Source: a virus. Taken from it: 64,000 nt of DNA. How positions within the stretch are numbered: the stretch's first letter is position 1; the number at the start of each line of letters is the position of its first letter. The position numbers and the translations under genes were made by a program. The DNA lies in IMG/VR virus record IMGVR_UViG_3300020578_000006, positions 124,001 to 188,000 of that record; one strand, written 5' to 3'. The notes under the pieces were generated by a model, which was not told the DNA's origin, did no database searches, and saw only the letters and a list, made by a program, of their open reading frames with translations. Of the stretch, positions 6,140 through 49,664 are shown in pieces.

Positions 6140-7644
6140 TTAGGTGCAGCTCCCGGGGTACCATTAAATAAACCCAAATCTCTTAGTTCAGAGGAAACTC
6201 TATCTGTAAAGATGTCCGGGCTTAACGTATCAAGCATTGATTGCTGAATATTAGTTCCAAAAGACGCCAATGTACCTGCTTCATTAAACTGTCTTACGTT
6301 AGTCACAGAAATAACATTGTATTTGTCATAGAGCATAGAATATAAAAAGTTCTGAGATTCTCTGGTCAATGCTCTCAATCTAATAGTGACATCATACGCT
6401 TCTGGTATCTGTGTAACTATTTTTAAAAGACCAGAACCGTAAGGAACAGGAATTTCCATGGTTCTTACAGATCCTAAAAATGAAACTTTCATCTCTTCTA
6501 TGTAAGCATAAGGGTAATATCTAGTTCCAGGCATACTCACCTCATAAATTACCGGAGGATCAACTAGATCTCTACTTCTCCTGTTAGGTCTATTTTGATA
6601 CATTAGCATGAATAGTAATTGCCAATTCTTACAAACATCGTAGTAATTTGACCACCCGGTGTTAACAAGCGGGAAATTAAAGGATATAGCTTCACCAGTA
6701 TCCGTGCCAAAATCAAAAAATTTAGGTTTTTCTATATAAATGCCAGGTGCAGACATATCAGCATAGGCCCCGAAAGTAGTTGCAAGCTGAGGCAGGGTGT
6801 TAGAAAACATATCGTAAAGATCTCCCAATGGTCCAATAACTTGTTTTGGATCTATCATCGGGGTATTACTAAAAGAATTTTGAATATTATTCCAGTTATT
6901 AACAAAATAAGGAAACCTGTACATTATATTGGTGTCTTGAGTTAAATACAAGCCTTCATAAGCAAGAAGATACTTACTGGCTAAACTATCAACATCTAAG
7001 TTTATTCCAAAGCCTTTTTGAAGAAAATTTAATCCGAAATTTGCAATCCCTGTAATGCCTGATAATACCCCACTACCGCCTACAGCAGCCCCACCAAGCA
7101 TTCCACCTGCTCTCAAAACACCTGTTATTAACTCTGGTGCTGTAACAGCGGTAACAAGTCCCAGAGGACCGGCCCGGGAGACGAGCGCTCTAGCCGCAGG
7201 TGTAGCAGCTTCTGATAAAAACTTTCCTCCAAGCTTATCTACAGCGAAGGCACCCAGTAGTGAATCTGCTACTAACCCCATGAAAGGGTTAGCATCTTTT
7301 AGTCGTTGTAGGCCTGCTGCTGCATCTGCTGTAGAACCCTGCAATGCTAGACCGTAATATGCCGCTTGGGCAATAAACGCATTAGCCCTCAATCTCTTTT
7401 CTTTTAGTCTTATCTCCGGTATGTCTGTTCTGCCTCTTAAGGGGGTTGTTGTCCAGTTAAAATCATTAATAACGTCAAATAGTGAATAACTACTAATATT
7501 ATTTTTTATGTTACCGGCACCGCCTGTTGAAGTTTTTATAGCATAAGAGCTACCAGGTACTAGTCTTGGCGCTCCAGTACCGTTCCCTCTTATACCGGCC
7601 TGATAATTTTCAGAAAAGGAATAAAGTTGTGGTAATTGCTTCAT
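6136..7644 (-). CDS. Baseplate tail-tube-cap-like protein (gp48/gp54 type)
   Basis: The product is 502 aa. Residues about 100-220 are rich in Ala and Gly with hydrophobic helices; the C-terminal half has tube-fold strands (FDFGTDTGEAISFNFPLVN, YAYIEEMKVSFLGSVRTM, AYDVTIRLRALTRES) ending in a helix with FLYSMLYDKY. That strand order is typical of T4 gp48/gp54, which cap the baseplate and seed tube growth. T4 gp48 is 364 aa; the excess here is the Ala/Gly-rich insert. The ATG overlaps the stop of the upstream 500-aa gene. Confidence 0.5.
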   Translation of the reverse strand: MKQLPQLYSFSENYQAGIRGNGTGAPRLVPGSSYAIKTSTGGAGNIKNNISSYSLFDVINDFNWTTTPLRGRTDIPEIRLKEKRLRANAFIAQAAYYGLALQGSTADAAAGLQRLKDANPFMGLVADSLLGAFAVDKLGGKFLSEAATPAARALVSRAGPLGLVTAVTAPELITGVLRAGGMLGGAAVGGSGVLSGITGIANFGLNFLQKGFGINLDVDSLASKYLLAYEGLYLTQDTNIMYRFPYFVNNWNNIQNSFSNTPMIDPKQVIGPLGDLYDMFSNTLPQLATTFGAYADMSAPGIYIEKPKFFDFGTDTGEAISFNFPLVNTGWSNYYDVCKNWQLLFMLMYQNRPNRRSRDLVDPPVIYEVSMPGTRYYPYAYIEEMKVSFLGSVRTMEIPVPYGSGLLKIVTQIPEAYDVTIRLRALTRESQNFLYSMLYDKYNVISVTNVRQFNEAGTLASFGTNIQQSMLDTLSPDIFTDRVSSELRDLGLFNGTPGAAPK

Positions 7645-9143
7645 ATAGTAAATCCTGGGTAAGAACCTCTAGTATTCTTTATATCAATTATATTGCTCCC
7701 TGTCTGGTTTCTAATTTCATTTTTATAGTTATTTATCATACCAGAATTAATGGTATTGGCACCATTACTTTTACCTGCAAGCTGGGTATTAATTGTCGAT
7801 CCTCCTTGAATCCCCGGTATCATAGCAGCTATTTGATCTACAGTACCCTTTACACCTTCCATAGATACTCTAATTTCTTTTAAAACCGTGGTAATAGATT
7901 TTACAACTGCGTCTAAATTAGTATTAATTGCTTTTAATGTTTGTTCTGAAGGAGATGTAATTTCAGCAGGGGCTTGAGTAATTGGAATATTAAATTTTGA
8001 TGCTAATCCTGGTAATGTAGGTTGTTGACTGACATTAAAAATGTTAGATGTGACTGCTCCGGTTTCATTAGCTTGACCTGCAAGACCCTGAGATGTCCCC
8101 GCAGAGGGTTGAGTTGGTAATTCTTTCTTTAACCCAGATAAATTTTTAAAATTATCTATCATAGCTTGAATTACATCTATTTCCCCATTCTTTAAATTTG
8201 CATTAAGAGGAAGACTGGTAGCCGCTTTAGGTTCATTACCTGGTAATACGGGTTGTTCAGGGGCAACAGTATTAGATTCTGAAGCAGGCAAAGTTAAGTT
8301 GTTAGCTTGAGAAATCTCTGGTTTAGGTTGTACAGTTTGATCTGTTACAGGTAAACTCTTAGAAGGCTCTTCAAACGCTTTGTGCATGGGATGTTCTAGT
8401 AAATTATCTACCATTTTATCTATATTCTTCTGTGCCGGTTTGTTGTCTTCTGCTATTTTTAATGGTTCTTTTTTAACTGGTTCCTCTACAATACTTGGTG
8501 GCTCAGCTAAATGAGCCGTTTCCATTTTTAATCTTTTATCCAAATCAGTTATATCAGGGACATCTAGCTTTTTAGGCTCTACAACTACCTGTGGGTTGTT
8601 TTGCTGTTCTATAGGCTTTTCTGCTTGTTTGGTTATTTGCTCTGGCTTTACTTCTACAGCTTCTTTGACTGGCTCTTTTACAGGTTCTACAATTTTTTCT
8701 ATTGTCTTTTCTCTTATTACTTCTGGTTTGTTGGGTTCTACAGGCTTAACAGGCTGTTCTGGTTTAGAGTTCTCTGTAATAGAGGTGGAAGTATTATTAT
8801 TGATGTCTGTGCTTAAAGGTATAGATTTAGCCGCGCTACTGGTTGTAATGTTTAATTCTGATTCTGCAGGTTCTTTTGATACGGGTGCCTGTGGGGTATC
8901 AGCAAGAGGGGGGTTAATTACCTCTTTAGCTCCCGCTTCATCTTTTCTAAGCGCTACATTTACCGGTTCAATTTTTTTAAATTGAACTTTGTTAGCTCTT
9001 TTCTTAAATGCAGTTTCAAACTGTTCTAATTCATCTATACTTACATCTTCTAAATCTTCTCTAGGTACACCATATAATTTAGAATACATATCTTTAAAAG
9101 ATGATTCTGCCTTTTGTAAATTGTCTACTGAATCGTTTTCCAT
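7641..9143 (-). CDS. Large disordered P/E/K/V-rich tail or baseplate protein
   Basis: The product is 500 aa, unrecognised. Residues 1-60 are acidic and helical. About 65-310 is low-complexity, rich in Pro, Glu, Lys and Val (repeats such as EPVKEPVKEAVEVKPEQ), hence probably extended. About 390-450 contains a heptad-like helix (LDAVVKSITTVLKEIRVSM), and the end is Asn/Gly-rich. It lies between gp26-like and gp48-like genes, where T4 keeps its hub and tape-measure genes, so a spacer or tape-measure-like role is possible but unproven. The opposite strand gives long spurious frames because of the biased composition. Confidence 0.65.
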   Translation of the reverse strand: MENDSVDNLQKAESSFKDMYSKLYGVPREDLEDVSIDELEQFETAFKKRANKVQFKKIEPVNVALRKDEAGAKEVINPPLADTPQAPVSKEPAESELNITTSSAAKSIPLSTDINNNTSTSITENSKPEQPVKPVEPNKPEVIREKTIEKIVEPVKEPVKEAVEVKPEQITKQAEKPIEQQNNPQVVVEPKKLDVPDITDLDKRLKMETAHLAEPPSIVEEPVKKEPLKIAEDNKPAQKNIDKMVDNLLEHPMHKAFEEPSKSLPVTDQTVQPKPEISQANNLTLPASESNTVAPEQPVLPGNEPKAATSLPLNANLKNGEIDVIQAMIDNFKNLSGLKKELPTQPSAGTSQGLAGQANETGAVTSNIFNVSQQPTLPGLASKFNIPITQAPAEITSPSEQTLKAINTNLDAVVKSITTVLKEIRVSMEGVKGTVDQIAAMIPGIQGGSTINTQLAGKSNGANTINSGMINNYKNEIRNQTGSNIIDIKNTRGSYPGFTI

Positions 9144-14576: not shown

Positions 14577-16306
14577 GGATTATTTATACCTTTACTCGGA
14601 TCTCCCGGAAAATACCACCCCTGTTGTCTTAGGTCTTCTATTTCTGCATCTACAATTGGCATCTTGTCATCCATTACAACAGGTAAAATACTATTGTCGT
14701 TATTTTCTAATTTTTCATTTGAGTATACGCTAAACGGACTTATTACGCCTTTAATACCGTAATCTAGGCTCTTAATAACTTGTGGCCTGTCACAAGCGTC
14801 AAGAGATACAACATCAAAATATCTAACACATATTTCATTTTCCAATGCCATTAACGCCCATATTAATGCCATCACTCTATCATCCCAACTATCGGATCCC
14901 GGTCTTGCACCCCACGTATTATTCGGGTATCTAATAAAACTTTTTAATTCTCTCAAGGTATACGTATCACGAAGCTTTACAGCTTTAAGCTCGTTAACCC
15001 AATATCTCATATTCATTACCCCTCTATATTTGGTATTGGTATGAGAGTATATTCCTAACCGTTTTATTTTTTGAATATTATTTTCACCTGCTTTTGACCC
15101 CCACGATACTATATTTTCATATCTGTGAGTAAATTTTAATTGCTCTACTACTTGTGCACCACAACTATTTCTTTCTATTAATACAGGGGGTCTGCCCCAT
15201 TGATTCAAAACTTCCAGTAATTTGGCCGTAAACGAAAAAGGAATTGTATCTCTAGTATGATATATTGCTACCTGCTCTATAGACGTAAGATCTGTAACAT
15301 CCAAAATTTGAATTACACTTGCTGCCTCTCCGACCCCCTCGCTGATATCAACCCCAACTACATATAATCTTTCTTCTTTAGGTTCTTCCCAAACCAAATA
15401 TCTACCCTCATCAAATATAAATTCTGGCTCTCTTATTTCCCGGCTCAAAACCCCGAAAAGAGCTTCATCTACTGAACTTTCCCCTCCATGCAAAAATTCA
15501 TTTCCAAACTCTTGTGCAAACGCCTCCTGGCTTCCTAATGTCTTAATTGTATCGTTTTTCCATTTTTCATCTCTTCCGGGAATTTCCCACCAATCAATTC
15601 TTTCTGATTTCCAGTTATTATCTCCCGATTGTGCTCCAGCATATAGTTGATAAAATAAATTATCCGTTCCATTTGGAGTACTTGCTATAAAAATTTTAGA
15701 TTTTTTTGAACTTGAAATAATTGGATAGACAGATTCCCAGAATTTTTCTACAATATGATTATCGATAAAAGCCAACTCATCAAGAATAAGACAATTACAA
15801 CTATCACCTCTACCTGCATCACTACTTGTTGTACTAATACCAATACTACTACCATTAGTTAGAGTCATACTTGTCTGCCCATATTCTACAACTCCTGGTT
15901 TTAAAAAGTTAGGTAACATTTCATAAGCCATTCTAACTCTTTTAAAGATGTTTTTTGCAGTTTGTTCTTTATTAGCAACAATCAAAATTCTCTGATCGTC
16001 ATTAAAACATGCATTCCATAAACAATAAATGGTCATTAAAGTTGTTTTACCTATCTGTCTAGAAGCAAGTAATATTACAAACCTACCGTCTCTTAAACTT
16101 CTAAGAATTCTCTTTTGACAAGAATATAGCTTAATTTTTTCTTTTCCTCTATCTAGATTAATAATGTAGAAGTAATTTTCTGCAAAATGTAATAAGTTTT
16201 TCTTACATTTTTTTAATTCACTTATCATTTCTGCCGTATACTCATGCTTAGTATTGACGGTTGGTAATCTTTCATTACCTAGATAAAATTTCTCTTTTTT
16301 CTCCAT
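14561..16306 (-). CDS. 17: Large terminase subunit gp17 (packaging ATPase-nuclease)
   Basis: The product is 581 aa (T4 gp17 is 610 aa). Walker A is SRQIGKTT (82-89), Walker B NCLILDELAF (171-180, catalytic Glu), and the coupling motif IASTPNG is at about 208-213. The RNase H-like nuclease domain shows VVGVDISEG (first Asp), LIERNSCGA (Glu) and GSDSWDDRVMA (last Asp). It cuts concatemers and pumps DNA into the prohead. The start ATG at 16306 follows a TCTAAATA box by 6 nt. Its 3' end overlaps the tube-like gene by 16 bp. Confidence 0.97.
   Translation of the reverse strand: MEKKEKFYLGNERLPTVNTKHEYTAEMISELKKCKKNLLHFAENYFYIINLDRGKEKIKLYSCQKRILRSLRDGRFVILLASRQIGKTTLMTIYCLWNACFNDDQRILIVANKEQTAKNIFKRVRMAYEMLPNFLKPGVVEYGQTSMTLTNGSSIGISTTSSDAGRGDSCNCLILDELAFIDNHIVEKFWESVYPIISSSKKSKIFIASTPNGTDNLFYQLYAGAQSGDNNWKSERIDWWEIPGRDEKWKNDTIKTLGSQEAFAQEFGNEFLHGGESSVDEALFGVLSREIREPEFIFDEGRYLVWEEPKEERLYVVGVDISEGVGEAASVIQILDVTDLTSIEQVAIYHTRDTIPFSFTAKLLEVLNQWGRPPVLIERNSCGAQVVEQLKFTHRYENIVSWGSKAGENNIQKIKRLGIYSHTNTKYRGVMNMRYWVNELKAVKLRDTYTLRELKSFIRYPNNTWGARPGSDSWDDRVMALIWALMALENEICVRYFDVVSLDACDRPQVIKSLDYGIKGVISPFSVYSNEKLENNDNSILPVVMDDKMPIVDAEIEDLRQQGWYFPGDPSKGINNPWRPL
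14581..14588 (-). promoter_or_regulatory. Late promoter box inside the end of gene 17
   Basis: TATAAATA on the minus strand within the last codons of gene 17, 4 nt before the GTG at 14576. Confidence 0.7.
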
Positions 16307-16335: not shown

Positions 16336-17280
16336 ATGACAAGAGTAAAAAGTATCAGCGATATTAGTCAGGTATATGAACAAATGTTAGAATCTAAAAA
16401 GGCTGATCAAACAAATACTCAGGAAGTAGTTGAGGAAAAAGCAGTTAAAAAGCTAGAATCATTTCCAAAAGCTACAGATAAAAAGGTTAACGTGGCAAAG
16501 ATTATGGCCAAGGGGTCTGATAAAAATGCTTTTGCACATAAAGATTCTGGGCCAGAGGCTGTATTAGGTGTTAATAAGAAAATTGTCGATCCAAAGACAG
16601 CAAAAAAGAATAATTACTTTGAACCAGAAAAATTTTCAGATAATACTAGAAAATTAGCTAAAGAGAATATAAATAATCATATGAAGTCAATTTTTGATAA
16701 ACTATATGAAGATGTAATTGGTAGCGACAAGCTCGATATCGGCTTACAAGCCGGTCCAGAAGGTGAAGCTACAGATGCTAAGGACCTCGATCTTAGCGGC
16801 GGTAGTGAAGATACCGTTACAGTAAAGCTTGATAGAGATTTAGCTCAAAAATTACATGATGCTCTTATGGATGTTCTTGGTGGTGAAGAAGAGCACGGTG
16901 ATGAAGATCTTGGTGATGAAGCCGCTCCTCTAGAAGATAAGGAAGAGGCTGAAGAAAAGAAGGAAGATAAGAAAGACGAAGCTGAAGAGGCTGAAGAAAA
17001 GAAGGAAGATAAGAAAGAAGTTGCCGGTGAAGGTACTGATCTTAAAGAAGTCTCCCCTAAGGCTGGTCAGTCTCTAGTAGGCCATGGCACAACACATGCT
17101 GGTAAAGTACCTACTGTTGGTAAGATCCGCGCTTCTGGCGGTAAGGCTAGCGGTGATGTAGCTGGTGTAGTTGATGGTAAGGGCAAAACCTTATCTCCCG
17201 CTGGTGGTCATGGCTTGACAAAGCCTGGTAGCATTAATGTAGGTGCTGCTGGTTACAAAGTTGGCGATTTTTTTAAATAA
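16336..17280 (+). CDS. Acidic Lys/Glu-repeat virion protein, unknown
   Basis: The product is 314 aa. The open frame extends upstream to 16261, but the late box 5 nt before 16336 fixes the start. The N-terminus (ISQVYEQMLESKK) has gp21-like VYE and MLE sites, and IFDKLYEDVIG near residue 120 is a second such motif. About 200-235 is a charged repeat (AEEKKEDKK units), encoded by an exact 35-bp DNA repeat. The C-terminus is Gly-rich, ending YKVGDFFK. Composition resembles scaffold or internal head proteins, but it does not match gp22 and lies away from head genes. Followed by a terminator. Confidence 0.75.
   Translation: MTRVKSISDISQVYEQMLESKKADQTNTQEVVEEKAVKKLESFPKATDKKVNVAKIMAKGSDKNAFAHKDSGPEAVLGVNKKIVDPKTAKKNNYFEPEKFSDNTRKLAKENINNHMKSIFDKLYEDVIGSDKLDIGLQAGPEGEATDAKDLDLSGGSEDTVTVKLDRDLAQKLHDALMDVLGGEEEHGDEDLGDEAAPLEDKEEAEEKKEDKKDEAEEAEEKKEDKKEVAGEGTDLKEVSPKAGQSLVGHGTTHAGKVPTVGKIRASGGKASGDVAGVVDGKGKTLSPAGGHGLTKPGSINVGAAGYKVGDFFK
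16942..17018 (+). repeat. Tandem direct repeat in coding sequence
   Basis: Two exact 35-bp copies (16942-16976 and 16984-17018) with a 42-bp period, encoding two 14-residue acidic/basic units (AEEKKEDKK core). Confidence 0.85.
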
Positions 17281-17302
17281 TTTAAAAGTAGCTTAAATAG
17301 AG

Positions 17303-17328
17303 AAGCCGTCAGTAATGACGGCTTTTTT
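17303..17328 (+). terminator. Rho-independent terminator
   Basis: Nine-bp stem AAGCCGTCA / TGACGGCTT with a GTAA loop, running into a T tract, right after the 314-aa gene. A late box starts 3 nt after it. Confidence 0.9.
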
Positions 17329-17330
17329 AT

Positions 17331-17338
17331 TATAAATA
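17331..17338 (+). promoter_or_regulatory. Late promoter box of the gene 14 operon
   Basis: TATAAATA, 5 nt before the GTG at 17344 and directly downstream of the terminator T tract. Confidence 0.75.
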
Positions 17339-17343
17339 ACATT

Positions 17344-17745
17344 GTGAGTCTCTTCGAAAAAGTATTTGTATCGCTTCTCGAAAAAGAATTAATAAATTCG
17401 GCCGCTACCTGGAATACCGGTATTATGCCAATTCATTATACCCCTCCACCCAAACCATTTCGACCTATGAATCCAGATAAACCAAGAGAAAGACATAGAA
17501 AAATTATTAAAGATCCTAAATTTAGAAAAAATGTTCAAACAGTACCTGACATGCACAAGGCAGATCCTACAGCAATAAGTGCGGTTACTAACGCAAGAGG
17601 TCAAAAATTATCTGAAGACGAATTAAAGCAAATATGTAGTAAGTATGGTATTTCTAGGCTTAACTCTAATTCACCTAAAAGCTTAGGTAATACAGGTAAA
17701 GTTTTAAAGTTTAGTCCAGAAATACAAGGATATGTAATTCAATGA
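17344..17745 (+). CDS. Putative internal or head-completion protein, unknown
   Basis: The product is 133 aa with a GTG start set by the late box. The N-terminus LFEKVFVSLLEKE fits a capsid-targeting peptide with an LLE site. The middle is basic and Pro-rich (PPPKPFRPMNPDKPRERHR) and resembles a nucleic-acid-binding tail. The C-terminus (LSEDELKQICSKYGISRLN) looks like a small helical domain. The neck gene 14 follows with an ATGA overlap; in T4 that place is held by gene 13, but length and sequence do not resemble gp13. Confidence 0.7.
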   Translation: MSLFEKVFVSLLEKELINSAATWNTGIMPIHYTPPPKPFRPMNPDKPRERHRKIIKDPKFRKNVQTVPDMHKADPTAISAVTNARGQKLSEDELKQICSKYGISRLNSNSPKSLGNTGKVLKFSPEIQGYVIQ

Positions 17746-18497
17746 GCATGGACAAATATACGGGGGTAAATTGTATTAGAAAATACCCCCTACAATATAC
17801 TACAAGCACGCTCCGATTTACAGATAAAGAAAACAATGAGTGTGAACGTCAATTATACAGCAATTACTGGAGAGAACAAATTGACCTTTACGGGCAAAAA
17901 GTTTTGTATTATAGACATACATACGACACTTTAAGTGCAGATAATATTTACGGGGAAATGCCATTAGCAAAATTCGAAGAGCCAAAATCCTTTATAATGT
18001 CAATAAGGTTAACAGAAAATGCATTAGTATTAAGTAAATTTGGATTTCAAAGTGACGATCAAGTTACAGCATATGTCCATATAAGTTCTTTTTACGCGGT
18101 TTACCCACCCAACATAGAACCTAAAGCTGGTGATGTTTTCAAGTTAGTAGAATATGGGAGTGATAGACCTGGGGAGCGGGACGGTAAAATGTTTGAAATA
18201 ACTGAACGTGTTGATGAAGATAACTCTCAAATAAACCCATTAATGGGCCATTACGTTTGGATGTTAAAGGCTAAGCGCTTTGATTATTCATTTGAGCCTA
18301 ATATTCAATTTGAAAAAGGAAGCAACCAAGTACAAGACACCCCAAAATATGGCACATTAAGCGCAGCTTTTACAACTCTACCTGGTTCTTTTGTTCAAAG
18401 AACAAGCAGTTACCCCGGTGATGCAAACACCACTAGCAAGGATAGAGTCTTTAATATGGATGTAAACGAAACGCTGGAATACGGCGGTTATTATTAA
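17742..18497 (+). CDS. 14: Neck (head-completion) protein gp14
   Basis: The product is 251 aa (T4 gp14 is 256 aa). IDLYGQKVLYYRHTYD, then ADNIYGEMP, SFIMSIRLTENALVLSKFG and DDQVTAYVHISSF match the conserved gp14 N-terminal half, and GKMFEITERVDED followed by NPLMGHYVWMLKAKRFDYS matches the second. gp13 and gp14 form the connector joined to the tail after packaging. Start ATG at 17742 overlaps the preceding stop. Its end overlaps a convergent minus-strand gene by 4 bp. Confidence 0.8.
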   Translation: MSMDKYTGVNCIRKYPLQYTTSTLRFTDKENNECERQLYSNYWREQIDLYGQKVLYYRHTYDTLSADNIYGEMPLAKFEEPKSFIMSIRLTENALVLSKFGFQSDDQVTAYVHISSFYAVYPPNIEPKAGDVFKLVEYGSDRPGERDGKMFEITERVDEDNSQINPLMGHYVWMLKAKRFDYSFEPNIQFEKGSNQVQDTPKYGTLSAAFTTLPGSFVQRTSSYPGDANTTSKDRVFNMDVNETLEYGGYY

Positions 18498-29362: not shown

Positions 29363-30241
29363 ATGGACTTAGATAGTAAGTTAATTTTTGAGGCATACTC
29401 TCAAGCTAAATCAAAAATCTTGACAGAAGCTCCTATAGAGATGTCTGGTGACATTACAACAGAGCCTATAACTCAAAAAACTATGCCTGGGCAAGGAAAA
29501 GCATATGGAGCTGGTGCAATTGCAAAGATTGCCGTAGCTACAAAAAAGACGGAGGAACAAATTGGAGAAGATATGGCAAACTTTATTAAAGGTCATCCTG
29601 AACTTACAAAAAAATTAATAGACAATAAAGAGCAACTATATTACCCTGGTGACCCACAAACTTTTATTAATGAGCTTGTACAGGGGAGAAAAGATTATCC
29701 ATCATTTACTCAAAAATTCGGAGTTGTTCGCTCTCAAGCAGGCTTTACTATAAACTATGTTTTAAACTATCTTTTAGGTGCAAAAAAGACAAAGGGTGGC
29801 CTGGTTATGGATGCAGCAAGAAAAAAAGAAGTAAAAGCCGCTAAAGCAGCAGCTGCTCCAAAAACAGAAACAGTTTTTGAAATTGATAAAGCTGTCAAAT
29901 TAGAAAACAAAGCATTAAGACCAATTGTAATGAGCCTACCTGATGATGATGTACCAGAAAAAGAAATTTTAGGCGTTCTAAAGACCGCTATCAACGAATA
30001 TAATGATCGTCCTGGTATTGAACCTCTAAAAATTAAATCTTTTGATTTGTTTGATATTTTAAAGACAGCTGGTGTAATTAAAGAAAAACAAGTTGAGAAA
30101 AAAGCTAAAGAAGGTGAAGGTTCGGGAGAAGTAGAGACAATAGACGAATACCCAGAAGGGGACGATGTTCATATGGCGGCTAAAGAGCTGTTTAATATTA
30201 GAAGTACCCCTGGGGACCCCAACTACGGAGATTTTAGTTAA
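29363..30241 (+). CDS. Putative capsid-targeted internal protein
   Basis: The product is 292 aa. The N-terminus has two gp21-type sites, LIFE-A near residue 10 and ILTE-A near 21. A folded region of about 50-130 (EEQIGEDMANFIKGHPELT, YPSFTQKFGVVRSQAGF) looks like a helical DNA-binding-type domain, followed by an Ala/Lys-rich stretch (KKEVKAAKAAAAPK) and an acidic C-terminus. Function unknown. Convergent overlap with the amidotransferase gene. Confidence 0.7.
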   Translation: MDLDSKLIFEAYSQAKSKILTEAPIEMSGDITTEPITQKTMPGQGKAYGAGAIAKIAVATKKTEEQIGEDMANFIKGHPELTKKLIDNKEQLYYPGDPQTFINELVQGRKDYPSFTQKFGVVRSQAGFTINYVLNYLLGAKKTKGGLVMDAARKKEVKAAKAAAAPKTETVFEIDKAVKLENKALRPIVMSLPDDDVPEKEILGVLKTAINEYNDRPGIEPLKIKSFDLFDILKTAGVIKEKQVEKKAKEGEGSGEVETIDEYPEGDDVHMAAKELFNIRSTPGDPNYGDFS

Positions 30242-42595: not shown

Positions 42596-42811
42596 ATGAT
42601 AACATTTAAACAATTTGTAATGAATGAAGAAAATGTAGCCGGGGACGGAGGTGTTTTTGGATCAGCTGCTAGTATGGGACATGGAGGTGATGTCGGCAAT
42701 ACTGATTTTTACGCACCCGGTGCAGCATTTTTGGCCAAACCTCTTTTTAAAGTAAAAGGCAAAAAAAATAAAATACTTGTACAAAGAAGAAATAAGTTTA
42801 AATACTTCTGA
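42596..42811 (+). CDS. Small capsid-targeted-like protein
   Basis: The product is 71 aa, taking the ATG at 42596 (the frame is open much further upstream over uvsY). MITFKQFVMNE-E is a close analogue of the T4 internal protein leader MKTYQEFIAE. The mature part is Gly-rich (GDGGVFGSAASMGHGGDVG) with a very basic C-terminus (VKGKKNKILVQRRNKFKYF) suited to DNA binding. Overlaps the GIY-YIG-like gene by TGATG. Confidence 0.7.
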   Translation: MITFKQFVMNEENVAGDGGVFGSAASMGHGGDVGNTDFYAPGAAFLAKPLFKVKGKKNKILVQRRNKFKYF

Positions 42812-43227
42812 TGGACCTAGGTCATTGGATTTTAAAAGAGGGTATATCTTTTAATGAATCGTCATTTGGATTCATTTATGAGATATGCAATACAGTTACA
42901 GGTAGAAAATATGTAGGTAAAAAGCAATGTCAGAGTAAACTAAAGCGTAAACCCTTAAAGGGCAAGAAAAATAAAAGAATAGAAATAAAAGAGTCTGATT
43001 GGAAAAGCTATACAGGGTCGTCAAAAGAGCTTAATGAAGATATTGAAAAGTACGGTAAAGACAAATTTACTTTTACTATATTACATGCATGTGGGTCTAA
43101 ATGGGAATTAGGATATAGAGAAATAAAAGAGCAGATAGAAAGAGATGTAATCTTAAGAGATGATTATTATAATGGCATTCTAAATGTCAGGATAGGGACG
43201 CCGCCTAAGAATTTTAGTATTGACTAG
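42811..43227 (+). CDS. GIY-YIG-type nuclease-like protein
   Basis: The product is 138 aa. FGFIYEICNTVTGRKYVGKKQ reads as the GIY...YIG strand pair (here FIY and YVG), followed by the ESDWKSYTGSSKELNEDI motif and the FTFTILHACGSKWEL segment of the phage GIY-YIG subfamily. A late two-gene unit with the 71-aa protein. Could be a packaged or free-standing endonuclease. Terminator-like stem at its end. Confidence 0.7.
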   Translation: MDLGHWILKEGISFNESSFGFIYEICNTVTGRKYVGKKQCQSKLKRKPLKGKKNKRIEIKESDWKSYTGSSKELNEDIEKYGKDKFTFTILHACGSKWELGYREIKEQIERDVILRDDYYNGILNVRIGTPPKNFSID

Positions 43228-44562: not shown

Positions 44563-45447
44563 ATGAATAGGGACATTAAGTTATTGTTTGAGGCTTATAA
44601 TAGTATTAAAGAGGCAGAAGATACTAACATAGACACCTTTCATAAAGAATTGGCCAAACAATGGGCTAGTTTATTCTTAGATAAATTACATGAGTATCCT
44701 ATTACCAGTAGATCGGCACACTTAGAAAGATTGCTTGATGGTTCATTAGAAGTTTTTAAGAAGTATATTCTAGATGATATTAAATCTAAAAAACTATCTT
44801 ATTTAAAGGCAGACGCTTTTTCAAAAAGCGAAGATGCTCAAAGCATTGTAAAAAAATTCACAGTAGTAAGTGGAGGTGTAGATAACACCAGTGATGTAGG
44901 TTTTGATTTGAGTGAAGTGGACCACGAGCAAGCCCAGAGCTTGCAAGATGTAGTAGACAGAACAATTGAAGACATGGAGAATGATGAAGATTTTGCAGAT
45001 ACTTTTCCTCAAGAATACAGAGAATTTAAGAACAATATGTTTATTATGTCCACCGATAGTGGTGATTTTGTGGCTGTACTTCCAGGGCATTTAGACGAGA
45101 AGCAAGTATTTGCAAAATTGGCATCAGCTTTCAGTGAAGATAAAAAAGGCCTATCAGATCAAGAATATCACCAAGCCCGTAAATTTGGGCTTGAAAGCGC
45201 AGGAGAAGTGGTCGGTAAAGGCCCTATAAAGATTCAGCTGACTAAAGACCAGACTTTATTATGCACAAGAGATGGACGGGAGCAAGAAGTAAAGTTCGTT
45301 AAAGGTGTTATATTTAATTGTGATGAATGGGTAGGGGATTATTATCATTGTGAATCAAAGAAATATGGTGGTGTTGCCGTATTTCCTCCAGACATTAAGC
45401 TATTAAGCGCCCCAGAGGGCACAATTACTCATCTAACTCCAGAGTAA
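44563..45447 (+). CDS. Putative capsid-targeted internal protein
   Basis: The product is 294 aa. MNRDIKLLFE-A matches the leader type of the 292-aa protein at 29363 (SKLIFE-A). The mature part is acidic, with a helical domain (about 20-95), an acidic linker and an alpha/beta end (FIMSTDSGDFVAVLPGHLD, YYHCESKKYGGVAVFPPDI). No family recognised. It immediately precedes the nuclease-NTase-ligase operon. Confidence 0.7.
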   Translation: MNRDIKLLFEAYNSIKEAEDTNIDTFHKELAKQWASLFLDKLHEYPITSRSAHLERLLDGSLEVFKKYILDDIKSKKLSYLKADAFSKSEDAQSIVKKFTVVSGGVDNTSDVGFDLSEVDHEQAQSLQDVVDRTIEDMENDEDFADTFPQEYREFKNNMFIMSTDSGDFVAVLPGHLDEKQVFAKLASAFSEDKKGLSDQEYHQARKFGLESAGEVVGKGPIKIQLTKDQTLLCTRDGREQEVKFVKGVIFNCDEWVGDYYHCESKKYGGVAVFPPDIKLLSAPEGTITHLTPE

Positions 45448-45483: not shown

Positions 45484-45491
45484 TATAAATA
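45484..45491 (+). promoter_or_regulatory. Late promoter box of the nuclease-NTase-ligase operon
   Basis: TATAAATA, 4 nt before the GTG at 45496. Confidence 0.75.
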
Positions 45492-45495
45492 ACAA

Positions 45496-46665
45496 GTGGC
45501 TTACATATCCCTAAAAGACCTATATTTTGAAGACGTAGCCGGCATAACTGTGCCTCCGCTGCCTAGACAACAGGTAAATACACCCCCGGTCAAAGTTTTT
45601 GTGCCGGGTGATGAATATGTACCTCAAACACCGTGGACAGAATACGATATATCTCCAGATTTATTTCAAAAAACAGCAGGTGGGGATAAGGAAGGTACTG
45701 GTAGAGGAGAATACAGTATAGCATGTATATTGTATGGGTTCAAGACTAAGGAACAAGTGGATAAAGCATCTGGTAGAATTATACAAGGCGGGGGAGCTTC
45801 TTTTGACGTGGTAGGACCAGATAAACGCAAGTATGAGGTAAAAGAATTAACTAAAGCTGTACGTACAGGAACGGAAGGAACCGGGGTTTTTACAGATATC
45901 CTTAATTCGACAATAGAATTGTTAGATGCTATACTAAAGGAATTTAATACGCTAGACGCCCAGGGTAAGCAGACCATAAACAATATGATTCTAAATAGCA
46001 ATACAGTAAAAAGCACTATTCTTAACAGAAAAAGTCAAAAGGGACATTTTGACGCTATTAAAGACAGGTGGAGCTTAGATGAATATTTAAATGACATAAA
46101 GCGTAAAGCCCCAAGAGAGCTCTCTAAAGGTATTCTTATTTCTCCTATTTTAAATTTAGGTCAATATAAAGAAGAGCGCCCTTACGTAATTTTTTCCTTA
46201 AAACAATTAGTTGATGTATTAAACGAGATTGCCTCTACACAAGTCGCAACAGGCAATGAAGAAGGTACACCTAATCCAGCTGTAAGGGATATCGCCGATA
46301 CTATCAATAAACATTACAGCGTACAAGGTGATGAGAAAGAAAAAGAATTTTTCAAAAAAGAGGCAGAGAAAATTGATAGGGCATTAATTCAAAAGAGATG
46401 TAAGGAATTTAAAAAATGTACTGATGAATTATCTTTTAGAAAGCAAATAATAGCACTTAATTTGTCAGGAATGCTTAAGCTAATTCAAGATAAAACTCAA
46501 GATATTGTTGAGAATTTATTTCCAAATGATGGGTTATTTGCAGTAAACAGCCAAGGCTTTCAATACATTCCGCATAGTAAGTTAAATACCTATCTTGCTT
46601 TTGATACAATAAGTTCAGGAAGTGTAAAGATCAAGCAAAAAATAGCTAGTAATGAAACCATTTAA
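45496..46665 (+). CDS. Putative capsid-targeted PD-(D/E)XK nuclease-like protein
   Basis: The product is 389 aa with a GTG start fixed by the late box. The start VAYISLKDLYFE-D is leader-like. RGEYSIACIL (Glu72), GASFDVVG (Asp104) and KYEVKEL (Glu114, Lys116) follow the E...D...ExK order of PD-(D/E)XK nucleases. The rest is helical and Lys-rich. A late, possibly co-injected nuclease. The catalytic reading is from motif spacing only. The next gene starts inside its last codons. Confidence 0.6.
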   Translation: MAYISLKDLYFEDVAGITVPPLPRQQVNTPPVKVFVPGDEYVPQTPWTEYDISPDLFQKTAGGDKEGTGRGEYSIACILYGFKTKEQVDKASGRIIQGGGASFDVVGPDKRKYEVKELTKAVRTGTEGTGVFTDILNSTIELLDAILKEFNTLDAQGKQTINNMILNSNTVKSTILNRKSQKGHFDAIKDRWSLDEYLNDIKRKAPRELSKGILISPILNLGQYKEERPYVIFSLKQLVDVLNEIASTQVATGNEEGTPNPAVRDIADTINKHYSVQGDEKEKEFFKKEAEKIDRALIQKRCKEFKKCTDELSFRKQIIALNLSGMLKLIQDKTQDIVENLFPNDGLFAVNSQGFQYIPHSKLNTYLAFDTISSGSVKIKQKIASNETI

Positions 46666-47278
46666 ACAATTTCTTACAGAACAAAATGGTAGTAGTATAG
46701 GTTTTTTTCCTGGAGCATTTAAACCGCCTCACAAAGGCCATTTTGATACTGCAAAACAAGCTGCAACAATTAATGATGCAGCAGTAATTTTAGTTTCAAA
46801 AATAGATAGAGATAACATATCAGCCGACGACTCAATGTTTGTCTGGGAGACTTATAAACAGTATCTACCAAAAAACTTGTATGTGTTTTCAGTTCAAGGG
46901 TCCCCTGTTTTAACTATATATCAAATTACAGACATCCTTAACAATGGTGTTTTTACCCCCACACCTAGAGCCCCTACCCCTCTACCTGCGGCAACAGAAA
47001 TAGCAGATTTGTTAAGAAAGTTTAACCCACCTTACAGTGTTAACCTTTATGCAAGTCAAGAAGATACAGAAAGATTTAAATCATTCTATGGACCAAGTAA
47101 AGAGATTTTCCAAGGAAAAAACGTACAAAGTATTGCTATGAAAGATATTTCTCGACTAGCGTCTGCGACAGATGCACGTGCAGCATTGTTAAAAAATAAT
47201 GCAAAGGGGTTTCATTCTTTATTACCAAATATTGCAGATCAAAGTAAAGAGGCTATCTTTAATCGATTAAAAAAATGA
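46652..47278 (+). CDS. Capsid-targeted-like HxGH nucleotidyltransferase
   Basis: The product is 208 aa. MKPFKQFLTE-Q is nearly the T4 internal-protein leader. FFPGAFKPPHKGH (HxGH at 27-30) is the cytidylyltransferase/NMN adenylyltransferase signature, and ISRLASATDARAAL resembles the C-terminal ISsT..R motif. It transfers a nucleotidyl group; the substrate (NMN, pantetheine phosphate, sugar phosphate or other) cannot be read. Overlaps both neighbours. Confidence 0.78.
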   Translation: MKPFKQFLTEQNGSSIGFFPGAFKPPHKGHFDTAKQAATINDAAVILVSKIDRDNISADDSMFVWETYKQYLPKNLYVFSVQGSPVLTIYQITDILNNGVFTPTPRAPTPLPAATEIADLLRKFNPPYSVNLYASQEDTERFKSFYGPSKEIFQGKNVQSIAMKDISRLASATDARAALLKNNAKGFHSLLPNIADQSKEAIFNRLKK

Positions 47279-48636
47279 AATCTTTTAAACAATTCTTGCT
47301 CAAAGAGCAAATTATAAAAGAAGAGCGTACTTCTTATTTTTCACCACATCTCTCACATTTAGAAGACTTAGCTGTAGAGAACGGTAAAGCAGGATTTAAA
47401 GATTTTCTGACACATGTAAATTTAATTTCTAAAAAGATTCAAGGCTACGAATCAGAGCAAGAAATTAATGCAAAAATAGATGGAAGCCCTGCTATTTTGT
47501 TTGGTATTGATCCAAAAACTAAGACTTTTTTTATATCATTAAAATATGTAGTGGATGAATCTACCGATACAATAAAAGAAAATGCAAAACTCTTTCATAC
47601 ATCAGAAGAGATAGATCAAGCTATGTCGGATAGACCAGATTTTGCATCTAGGCTTAAAAATTTATTAGAGCAGTTAACACCAGCTTATGATAATTCTGGG
47701 TTAATATATCAAGGTGATGTTTTATACGCTAGTCAAGAAGATAAAAAAAGAGTGAAAATAGGTACAGAAGAGTTTATTACTTTTGAACCAAACACTATAA
47801 TGTATGCTATTCCTATGGATGATAAATCAGAACTATTTCATAAAGTATTAAACTCTTCAGTGGGGGTAGTTGTTCATGATAGTTTTAAAGGGGTAGTAGA
47901 TAAAGAATCGGGGATAATAAAACTTGTACCGGCGTCTAAAAACATTGACAGTTTGATTGCTAGTAGTACAAATTCAAAAGCATTCATAAAAGGTAGCAAT
48001 TATCGTACTTTTGCTTTTGATATACCCGATAAATTTTTTGATAATCTTAATACACTTATAGTGGACGCTAGTAAGCATATAAACTCTATTTCTGATGAAT
48101 TTAATAATGAATATGTGTCGCCTGGTAGGGGGGCGCCTTCTAGCCAAATCCTAGATATGTTAAAGCGCTATTTAAATAAGCAACTTGACCTAGAGGACTC
48201 AGGACTGTTTGGGGCAGCAAAGACTAGCGGTAGATTAAACTTTAATGCATTTTACAAGGGGTTTCAACAATATGTTGAGTCGCAGATAACAAAAGGTATA
48301 GAAGGACTTGGACCTAAGGGTCAAGCCCAACGCCAGCAAAGACTTAGTATTGTTCAAAGCTTTTTACAGAACAACGCAGCTAATTTTGAGCATCTATTAA
48401 CAGCTACCTTTGAGATGGTAAAAATTAAGTACCTTATTTTTAATATACTGTCTCAACTAGATACTAAGCTAACACAGCATGCTTTTTACAGACTTCCCGA
48501 TGGCTCGTATGTTAAAACAAAAGATGAAGGCTATGTTTTGTTTGCTGGTAATAATCAAGTAAAGATTGTAGATAGAGTAGATTTTTCTAAGATGAACCGC
48601 TTAGTTGGCGGTAGGCGCAGAACCCTTATTACCTGA
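47275..48636 (+). CDS. Capsid-targeted-like KxDG nucleotidyltransferase (ligase fold)
   Basis: The product is 453 aa. Leader MKSFKQFLLKE-Q. The ligase superfamily motifs appear in order: KIDGSPA (motif I, Lys67), LIYQGDVLYA (III-like), DEGYVLF (IV, Glu418) and VKIVDR (V, Lys430). This matches a family I recall as DUF6267 in T4-like marine phages. It could be a polynucleotide ligase or another covalent nucleotidyl enzyme. Start ATGA-overlaps the NTase gene; its end overlaps a convergent gene by 36 bp. Confidence 0.72.
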   Translation: MKSFKQFLLKEQIIKEERTSYFSPHLSHLEDLAVENGKAGFKDFLTHVNLISKKIQGYESEQEINAKIDGSPAILFGIDPKTKTFFISLKYVVDESTDTIKENAKLFHTSEEIDQAMSDRPDFASRLKNLLEQLTPAYDNSGLIYQGDVLYASQEDKKRVKIGTEEFITFEPNTIMYAIPMDDKSELFHKVLNSSVGVVVHDSFKGVVDKESGIIKLVPASKNIDSLIASSTNSKAFIKGSNYRTFAFDIPDKFFDNLNTLIVDASKHINSISDEFNNEYVSPGRGAPSSQILDMLKRYLNKQLDLEDSGLFGAAKTSGRLNFNAFYKGFQQYVESQITKGIEGLGPKGQAQRQQRLSIVQSFLQNNAANFEHLLTATFEMVKIKYLIFNILSQLDTKLTQHAFYRLPDGSYVKTKDEGYVLFAGNNQVKIVDRVDFSKMNRLVGGRRRTLIT

Positions 48637-49247: not shown

Positions 49248-49664
49248 ATGCGTAGTTACAAAGAATTTTTCTATGAACAAATACTAGGGGCTACGGAAGG
49301 TATTACTATTCAACATGTTGGAAACGTTAGAGCCACTGTAGACACTGGTAACAGCGGTTATAATGTACTTCATGCAGAAATAATTGATGGTGCAAAAGAG
49401 GGACATGTAAAATTTAAAACAGTAAACGACAAAGTGTTAGAATTGCCTGTAAAAGAGTTTATAACGGTATCCGGAAATAATAATACCAACGATAGACCAG
49501 TAGTAGAGTTAGACTGTAGCTTGGGCCAAGAACAATTTAATAAAGTTCCTTTCAGCCTTGCGGACAGAAGTCAGCAAGATACCCCTGTTCTCTTAAGTAA
49601 AGATTTTATAAAATTAAATGGCGGTGTTGTTAATGTTAATATTAACAGCGAAATTAAAAAATAA
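49248..49664 (+). CDS. Capsid-targeted-like retropepsin-fold aspartic protease
   Basis: The product is 138 aa. MRSYKEFFYE-Q is a leader of the T4 internal-protein type. VRATVDTGNSGYNVLHA carries a DTG catalytic triad (32-34), HVKFKTVND and RPVVELDCSLG follow, and FSLADRSQQDTPVLLSKDF matches the family of RimK-associated retropepsin-like proteases, where fsL.DRs...yPvLlGr is diagnostic. Possible roles: virion maturation, or cutting a host protein after injection. Confidence 0.72.
   Translation: MRSYKEFFYEQILGATEGITIQHVGNVRATVDTGNSGYNVLHAEIIDGAKEGHVKFKTVNDKVLELPVKEFITVSGNNNTNDRPVVELDCSLGQEQFNKVPFSLADRSQQDTPVLLSKDFIKLNGGVVNVNINSEIKK

Follow-up and report, generated by a model that had tools for sequence, protein, structure and literature searches.

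Among the internal proteins of bacteriophage T4, IPI acts against a restriction enzyme and Alt is an enzyme that is injected, and mutagenesis of IPIII mapped targeting of the protein to residues 4 and 7 of its leader and processing to residues 8 and 10 (review PMC9026906). A second point of reference is provided by cyanophages, for which an NMNAT / cytidylyltransferase, encoded next to a DUF6267 gene in several phages, is among the virion proteins reported (S-SM1, S-CBWM1, S-SZBM1, S-SCSM1 and S-CREM2). The stretch of DNA analysed here, referred to as the window, comprises 64,000 nucleotides, namely bases 124001-188000 of the 229,717-base IMG/VR virus record IMGVR_UViG_3300020578_000006 (the whole record being denoted G000), and contains an operon of three genes for a predicted nuclease, an HxGH nucleotidyltransferase, which belongs to the same family as the cyanophage enzyme, and a ligase-like DUF6267 protein. 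The best explanation of the locus as a whole, which we favour with fair though far from full confidence, is that the operon encodes capsid cargo, a set for cutting, sealing and cofactor supply that would act after ejection. The features on which this reading is built are the following.

45484-45491, plus strand: T4-type late promoter box TATAAATA, from the sequence, 4 bases 5' of the gene 1 GTG
45496-46665, plus strand: gene 1 (389 amino acids (aa), GTG start), predicted PD-(D/E)XK-type nuclease, hypervariable, from catalytic residues and slot
45496-45531, plus strand: gene 1 leader MAYISLKDLYFE, candidate capsid-targeting sequence of atypical form, with candidate cleavage after E12
46652-47278, plus strand: gene 2 (208 aa), HxGH nucleotidyltransferase of the NMNAT / cytidylyltransferase superfamily, from TIGR00125
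46652-46681, plus strand: gene 2 leader MKPFKQFLTE, agreeing exactly in its key positions with the T4 capsid-targeting sequence
47275-48636, plus strand: gene 3 (453 aa), DUF6267 protein, by prediction an RNA-ligase-type covalent nucleotidyltransferase, from Pfam, motifs and an AlphaFold2 (AF2) model
47275-47307, plus strand: gene 3 leader MKSFKQFLLKE, capsid-targeting-like, one-residue insertion before Glu
G000 100462-100908: Peptidase_S77 gp21-type prohead protease (E 5.5e-36)

All three open reading frames (ORFs) were confirmed and overlap by 14 bases (genes 1 and 2) and 4 bases (genes 2 and 3). An earlier reading made from the letters alone (the sequence-only reading) had described three overlapping genes behind one late box, and this layout was borne out in full, with ORFs, overlaps and box all present, as was every residue it had named in the three proteins. 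A TAAATA-type box also stands 5' of the GTG in the gene 1 homologues of L014 and L006, two contigs closely related to the window over the rest of the locus. In the genome under study, a TAAATA box lying <=22 nt from the start accompanies 12/14 leader genes vs 63/298 other ORFs (Fisher p = 1e-6), and late expression of the operon is a candidate assignment that draws on its own box and on this genome-wide association. Both in the window and in the whole record, TAAATA boxes often lie only ~5-12 nt before start codons (e.g. 45484-45496); because they are so near, many late mRNAs would be almost leaderless if the T4 initiation rule holds.

The sequence-only reading had taken the leaders to be short hydrophobic peptides ending in xE, which turned out to be too broad; a more useful definition follows T4 IPIII, with aromatic residues at 4 and 7, an aliphatic residue at 8 and Glu at 10. 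A strict pattern built on these mapped positions, M..[FY]..[FY][ILFV].E, replaced the looser ones tried first. It matches 2/1832 possible starts in T4 (150 kb scanned), IPII and IPIII only, and 4/2345 in this genome, all of them first starts (gene 2, the gene at 49248 and two outside the window); in S-SM1 it finds only the cytidyltransferase SSM1_190. Gene 2 conforms exactly, and gene 3 keeps F4, F7 and L8 with Glu at 11 instead of 10. The class formed by these two leaders occurs on 5/312 genome ORFs, compared with 0.5 expected from shuffled N-termini. Gene 1 carries a leader of different type, which is nonetheless conserved: the spacing L6-x-x-L9-Y10-x-E12 equals that of Y4-x-x-F7-I8-x-E10 in T4 IPIII, without the aromatics, and E12 is invariant in three homologues. 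The claim of capsid-targeting-like leaders on all three genes stands, in this form, for genes 2 and 3 as one class.

Leaders of this kind extend to the relatives of gene 3, which were collected by a viral-contig search with a six-sequence alignment (80 kept of 588 related stretches). Of the DUF6267 N-termini scored in related loci, 59/83 have a leader immediately ahead of the conserved H[LM]xHxED, at which the leaderless cyanophage copies begin, and a looser leader pattern is found on 105/1327 genes in DUF6267-related loci vs 2.7 expected. Leaders on DUF6267 covary with those on the neighbouring gene (24/6/4/8, p = 0.009); since leader presence, which changes about 8 times on the DUF6267 tree, is strongly clustered there, this covariation is partly a matter of shared descent. 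The window's gene 3 forms a long branch in that tree.

Mass spectrometry of cyanophage virions bears on gene 2 most directly. In S-SM1 the gene-2 homologue family T4-GC190 was detected in virions (PMC3037559), the S-SM1 copy, SSM1_190, starting with MKKFSAFLNE. The virion list of S-SZBM1 holds a 362-aa cytidylyltransferase with the leader MRFRQFIIE; its neighbours, a DUF6267 protein of 397 aa and an upstream protein of 445 aa, both leaderless, do not appear in that published list. The NMNAT of S-SCSM1 (MKSFLQFLKE) and the cytidylyltransferase of S-CREM2 (MKNFSSFLTE), both virion proteins, match the strict pattern exactly. SSCSM1_90, the protein in the slot upstream of DUF6267 in S-SCSM1 (motif PADIY..GVSLKK), is likewise a virion protein and a member of the largest of the upstream-slot families (E 2e-79). 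Although numbers are small, the leader is present on 4/4 virion-detected gene-2 homologues examined. The proposed packaging through a T4-type leader draws on these four virion sets and on the prohead protease that this phage encodes, the different leader of gene 1 being the part that does not fit. Gene 2 is very probably packaged; for gene 3, packaging is probable, and for gene 1 it may be expected with less assurance.

The assignment of gene 2 to the HxGH nucleotidyltransferases held up, the protein scoring 30.9 bits against the curated adenylyl/cytidylyltransferase family TIGR00125 of NCBIfam (cut-off 27.7) and containing both H27-K-G-H30 and S171-A-T-D-A-R176, the latter of the SxTxxR type. 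CTP_transf_like is matched with E 8e-4, the PHROG match is labelled cytidyltransferases, and the best weak profile matches are the NMNAT, NadR and CoaD families. The nearest module relative in the set, that of L112, shares the PPHKGH variant and likewise lies beside DUF6267.

Gene 3 encodes a DUF6267 protein of full length (Pfam PF19782, E 1.6e-48, residues 25-441, 166 bits vs gathering score 27), a family that is uncharacterised and on which no paper was found in the literature searched. The motifs K67-I-D-G, Q146-G-D-V, E418-G419 and K430 were located; across an alignment of 66 members, most of which share 24-30% identity with gene 3, K67, D69 and G70 of motif I (KxDG), Q146-G-D148, E418 and G419 of motif IV, and K430 and R434 in the region of motif V are invariant. 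Motifs I, IV and V are found here in the order typical of covalent nucleotidyltransferases. Structure prediction, proposed by the sequence-only reading as a check, gave a good AF2 model of gene 3, with a predicted local distance difference test score (pLDDT) of 86 and a predicted template-modelling score (pTM) of 0.83. RNA ligases make up 9/13 of its top matches in the PDB (probability 0.2-0.8, E 0.06-0.34, template-modelling (TM) score about 0.2), and in BFVD the next named matches, after DUF6267 itself, including its fusions with cytidyltransferases, are RNA ligases with E about 0.002. A PDB profile search with gene 3 returned no significant match, and hmmscan of all 66 members returned no ligase family. 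The description of gene 3 as ligase-like is retained for its motifs and weak fold match, although no profile match is significant, and an RNA-ligase-type covalent nucleotidyltransferase is what motifs and model predict.

Gene 1 contains E72, D104 and E114-V-K116 in PD-(D/E)XK order, and these residues are invariant in the homologues of L014 (76-79% identity) and L006 (L006:6182-7378, 41-45%), so that the order E, D, (E/S)xK is conserved down to 45% identity. They lie within GxGRGE...FD..GP....YEVKEL, the best conserved region outside the leader: in the comparison with L006, 10/12 leader positions and 38/60 of the catalytic block are identical, as against 17/53 (32%) of the stretch between them. 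The slot is hypervariable, the neighbouring genes of L006 being mostly 81-98% identical to those of the window (genes 2 and 3, 88% and 95%). In other loci a nuclease family with a leader (GxGPGE...D...YEVK) lies upstream of DUF6267, and in its alignment with gene 1 the catalytic residues stay in register. Against a profile of these DUF6267-linked nucleases, gene 1 and its orthologue take the first two ranks among 191 genome proteins, with raw hhalign scores that are weak (E 0.004-0.02). Gene 1 has no Pfam, PHROG or NCBIfam match and nothing over any curated Pfam cut-off; a tblastn search of 50,697 phage records gave no match, and two viral-contig scans gave near relatives only. A weak match to Pfam PDDEXK_13 was discarded, as it spans residues 282-367 and not the motif. 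The AF2 model, made from three sequences, is of low confidence (pLDDT 35). The nuclease-like character of gene 1 stands on catalytic residues and slot, and the protein is likely PD-(D/E)XK-like to judge from its sequence.

The cassette of nuclease-like, DUF6267 and HxGH genes is real. In cyanophages and other T4-like phages, DUF6267 is found with an upstream protein and a downstream HxGH enzyme; the three-gene set recurs in this form, and the order in the window differs, the HxGH gene preceding DUF6267. Among 80 loci fetched with the leader-bearing nuclease alone, 70 hold DUF6267 and 51 an HxGH nucleotidyltransferase. The upstream slot is occupied by many families that BLAST does not join, and a D..[ES]xK motif is present in 15/57 upstream neighbours of DUF6267 vs 9/398 background genes (p = 3e-9). 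Two leaderless upstream-slot proteins with D..SxK lie beside DUF6267 in S-SM1 (SSM1_188, L207:2092-2925) and in the Vibrio straboviral phage EniLVp02 (L208:2994-3893). HAD-type phosphatases (DIDDTL) also occur beside DUF6267 (L060:8399-9016, L067:5608-6210, L108:10530-11339, L098:8275-8874 and L101:10682-11368), three of the five with a clear leader; end-healing before ligation would fit such enzymes. Culturable phages with the leader-tagged cassette include Methylophilales phage Melnitz and Stenotrophomonas phage DLP6. No description of leader or cassette was found in the literature searched, which lay mostly outside subscription papers and preprints.

Of the other explanations, the one that survives best, though it is unlikely, is counter-defence at the level of NAD or nucleotide metabolism: the NMNAT-like enzyme would replenish NAD+, or some related dinucleotide, once inside the cell, and the other two proteins, nuclease and ligase-like, would be separate cargo with only the packaging route in common. 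It can be rationalized from the NMNAT-like annotation, from the families named above as the best weak profiles of gene 2 and from the repeated detection of the enzyme in cyanophage virions. However, HxGH enzyme and DUF6267 occur as fusion proteins, in one order in L047 and in the other in L051, L071 and L089, and these fusions together with the conserved cassette suggest a joint function.

Several observations weigh against the operon as an injected cut-and-seal set. The link between late box and leader was not seen in other contigs (3/25 vs 59/354), and the gene 1 leader does not conform to the strict pattern. Most cyanophage copies of DUF6267 are without a leader, so that packaging lies outside the core function of the family. 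The virion proteomes come from cyanophages distant from this phage; the S-SZBM1 list includes an unrelated 457-aa module neighbour without a leader, and CsCl-purified virions may carry contaminants according to the authors of PMC10665884 and PMC9602691. The assignment of gene 1 rests on motif and slot, its HMMER profile match being not significant (rank 10 of about 313). The fold similarity of gene 3 to ligases is weak (PDB E about 0.06, TM about 0.2), hhalign against T4 RnlB, RnlA, DNA ligase and gp23 gave no significant match, and in a decoy ranking of the gene 3 profile T4 RnlA came at rank 6-8 of 138 and RnlB lower, which is not significant. It is because the sequence-profile tests against T4 ligases were not significant that gene 3 is called ligase-like and not a ligase.

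Alternatively, the cassette might act in the infected cell on replicating phage DNA, by trimming and sealing, recombination or repair, and not be injected at all; the leaders would then bind another phage protein, for instance of the prohead core or the replisome, and any material in virions would be carry-over. We regard this as improbable. In P-HM2, S-RIM32, S-SM1 and S-SZBM1 the cassette adjoins the replication genes gp43/uvsX/gp41/mazG and DUF6267 is leaderless, which suits such a role, as does the caution about co-purification just cited. On the other hand, the leader matches experimentally mapped T4 targeting positions, the virion-detected homologues all have it whereas the leaderless DUF6267 and upstream neighbour of S-SZBM1 go unlisted there, and the operon here starts at a late box. 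That gene 1 is instead a fast-evolving inhibitor or core protein with a coincidental E/D/ExK, as its hypervariability, akin to that of T4 internal proteins, its want of a family match and its poor model might suggest, is unlikely, given that the four catalytic residues fall within the best conserved region outside the leader and that in many phages the slot is filled by other proteins bearing this signature.

Returning to the operon as capsid cargo, we infer the packaging of genes 1 and 3 here, the cleavage sites, the injection and the substrates and targets in the following scheme. Late in infection, the three proteins would be synthesized with targeting peptides at their N-termini and taken into the prohead core, where the gp21-type protease would remove the leaders after E10 (gene 2), E11 (gene 3) and probably E12 (gene 1), and the mature enzymes would be ejected along with the DNA. 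In the new cell, the fast-evolving PD-(D/E)XK-like nuclease would cut nucleic acid, DUF6267 would adenylylate or seal ends, and gene 2 would make or regenerate a dinucleotide cofactor, perhaps NAD+, either to serve the ligase or to counter defences that deplete NAD. Joint processing of nucleic acid after injection, which the sequence-only reading had proposed in similar form, has about an even chance or slightly less. That marine T4-like phages at large package and inject such a cut-and-seal cassette, with a hypervariable nuclease, a constant RNA-ligase-like DUF6267 and a cofactor-recycling NMNAT-like partner, for attack on the host or counter-defence within minutes of the start of infection, is a tentative generalization to which we give somewhat less than an even chance.

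The surroundings of the operon contain further leader-bearing genes and one endonuclease.

44563-45447, plus strand: neighbouring late gene with the second-class leader MNRDIKLLFEAY, body without assigned family
49248-49664, plus strand: neighbouring late gene, retropepsin-like peptidase domain, exact leader MRSYKEFFYE

The peptidase gene at 49248-49664 is RloA3/RimB-like and carries an exact capsid-targeting-like leader; NF052264 (RloA3-type) is matched with E 2e-9, under its curated cut-off, and Pfam Zn_protease with E 6e-8, over its cut-off. The second leader class, MNxDSxLIFEAY, is found on nine ORFs of the genome vs 0.008 expected by shuffling, at 29363-30241 and 44563-45447 in the window and within G000 7470-8949, 17031-18284 and 215102-216833. 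The nine are otherwise different, stand directly behind TAAATA boxes and mostly have Glu at 10, as IPIII has; the bodies scanned gave no confident Pfam match. Outside the window, G000 15636-16286 encodes a Peptidase M15 / VanY-like protein with the exact leader MVSYRQFIKE, which may itself be a packaged wall enzyme or may instead caution that such leaders also occur on proteins other than cargo; the virion list of S-SCSM1 also has a D-Ala-D-Ala carboxypeptidase. A SegE-type GIY-YIG endonuclease lies at 42811-43227, its best PHROG being labelled NAD synthetase, likely a PHROG mislabel.

In cyanophage virion proteomes an unexplained NMNAT-like protein has appeared repeatedly, and the leader explains how it may get there; a capsid-targeting leader also predicts from sequence alone which further enzymes are packaged. 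DUF6267, present in hundreds of cyanophage records, gains a testable ligase-type role and a partner, and for the T4-type internal proteins of marine phages nucleic-acid-processing enzymes are suggested, beyond inhibitors and ADP-ribosyltransferases.

Compared with known enzymes, gene 3 resembles T4 RNA ligase 1 and other covalent nucleotidyltransferases in the order from KxDG onwards, in motif IV (EGYVA), in the motif V Lys and, weakly, in fold, and differs by a large helical insertion, by its N-terminal HLEHLED and by having QGD where the usual motif III would stand. Gene 1 shares E, D and ExK in order with the PD-(D/E)XK nucleases, as many other upstream-slot proteins share D..SxK or D..ExK with them, the difference being that several families unrelated by BLAST occupy one slot. 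The cyanophage NMNAT reports, in their accessible parts, make no mention of a targeting leader, a link to DUF6267 or an upstream nuclease-like protein. With T4 IPI, IPII, IPIII and Alt the locus has in common the length and key positions of the leader, the protease gene, predicted late expression and the combination of a conserved leader with a variable body, whereas what would be carried here is a predicted nuclease together with an HxGH nucleotidyltransferase and a ligase-like protein, and T4 is without a comparable packaged set; in T4, engineered capsid-targeting fusions delivered EcoRI and staphylococcal nuclease. The mechanism would be that of T4, and virion NMNAT-like proteins were already known; what is new is the cargo and its spread, which can be predicted from sequence.

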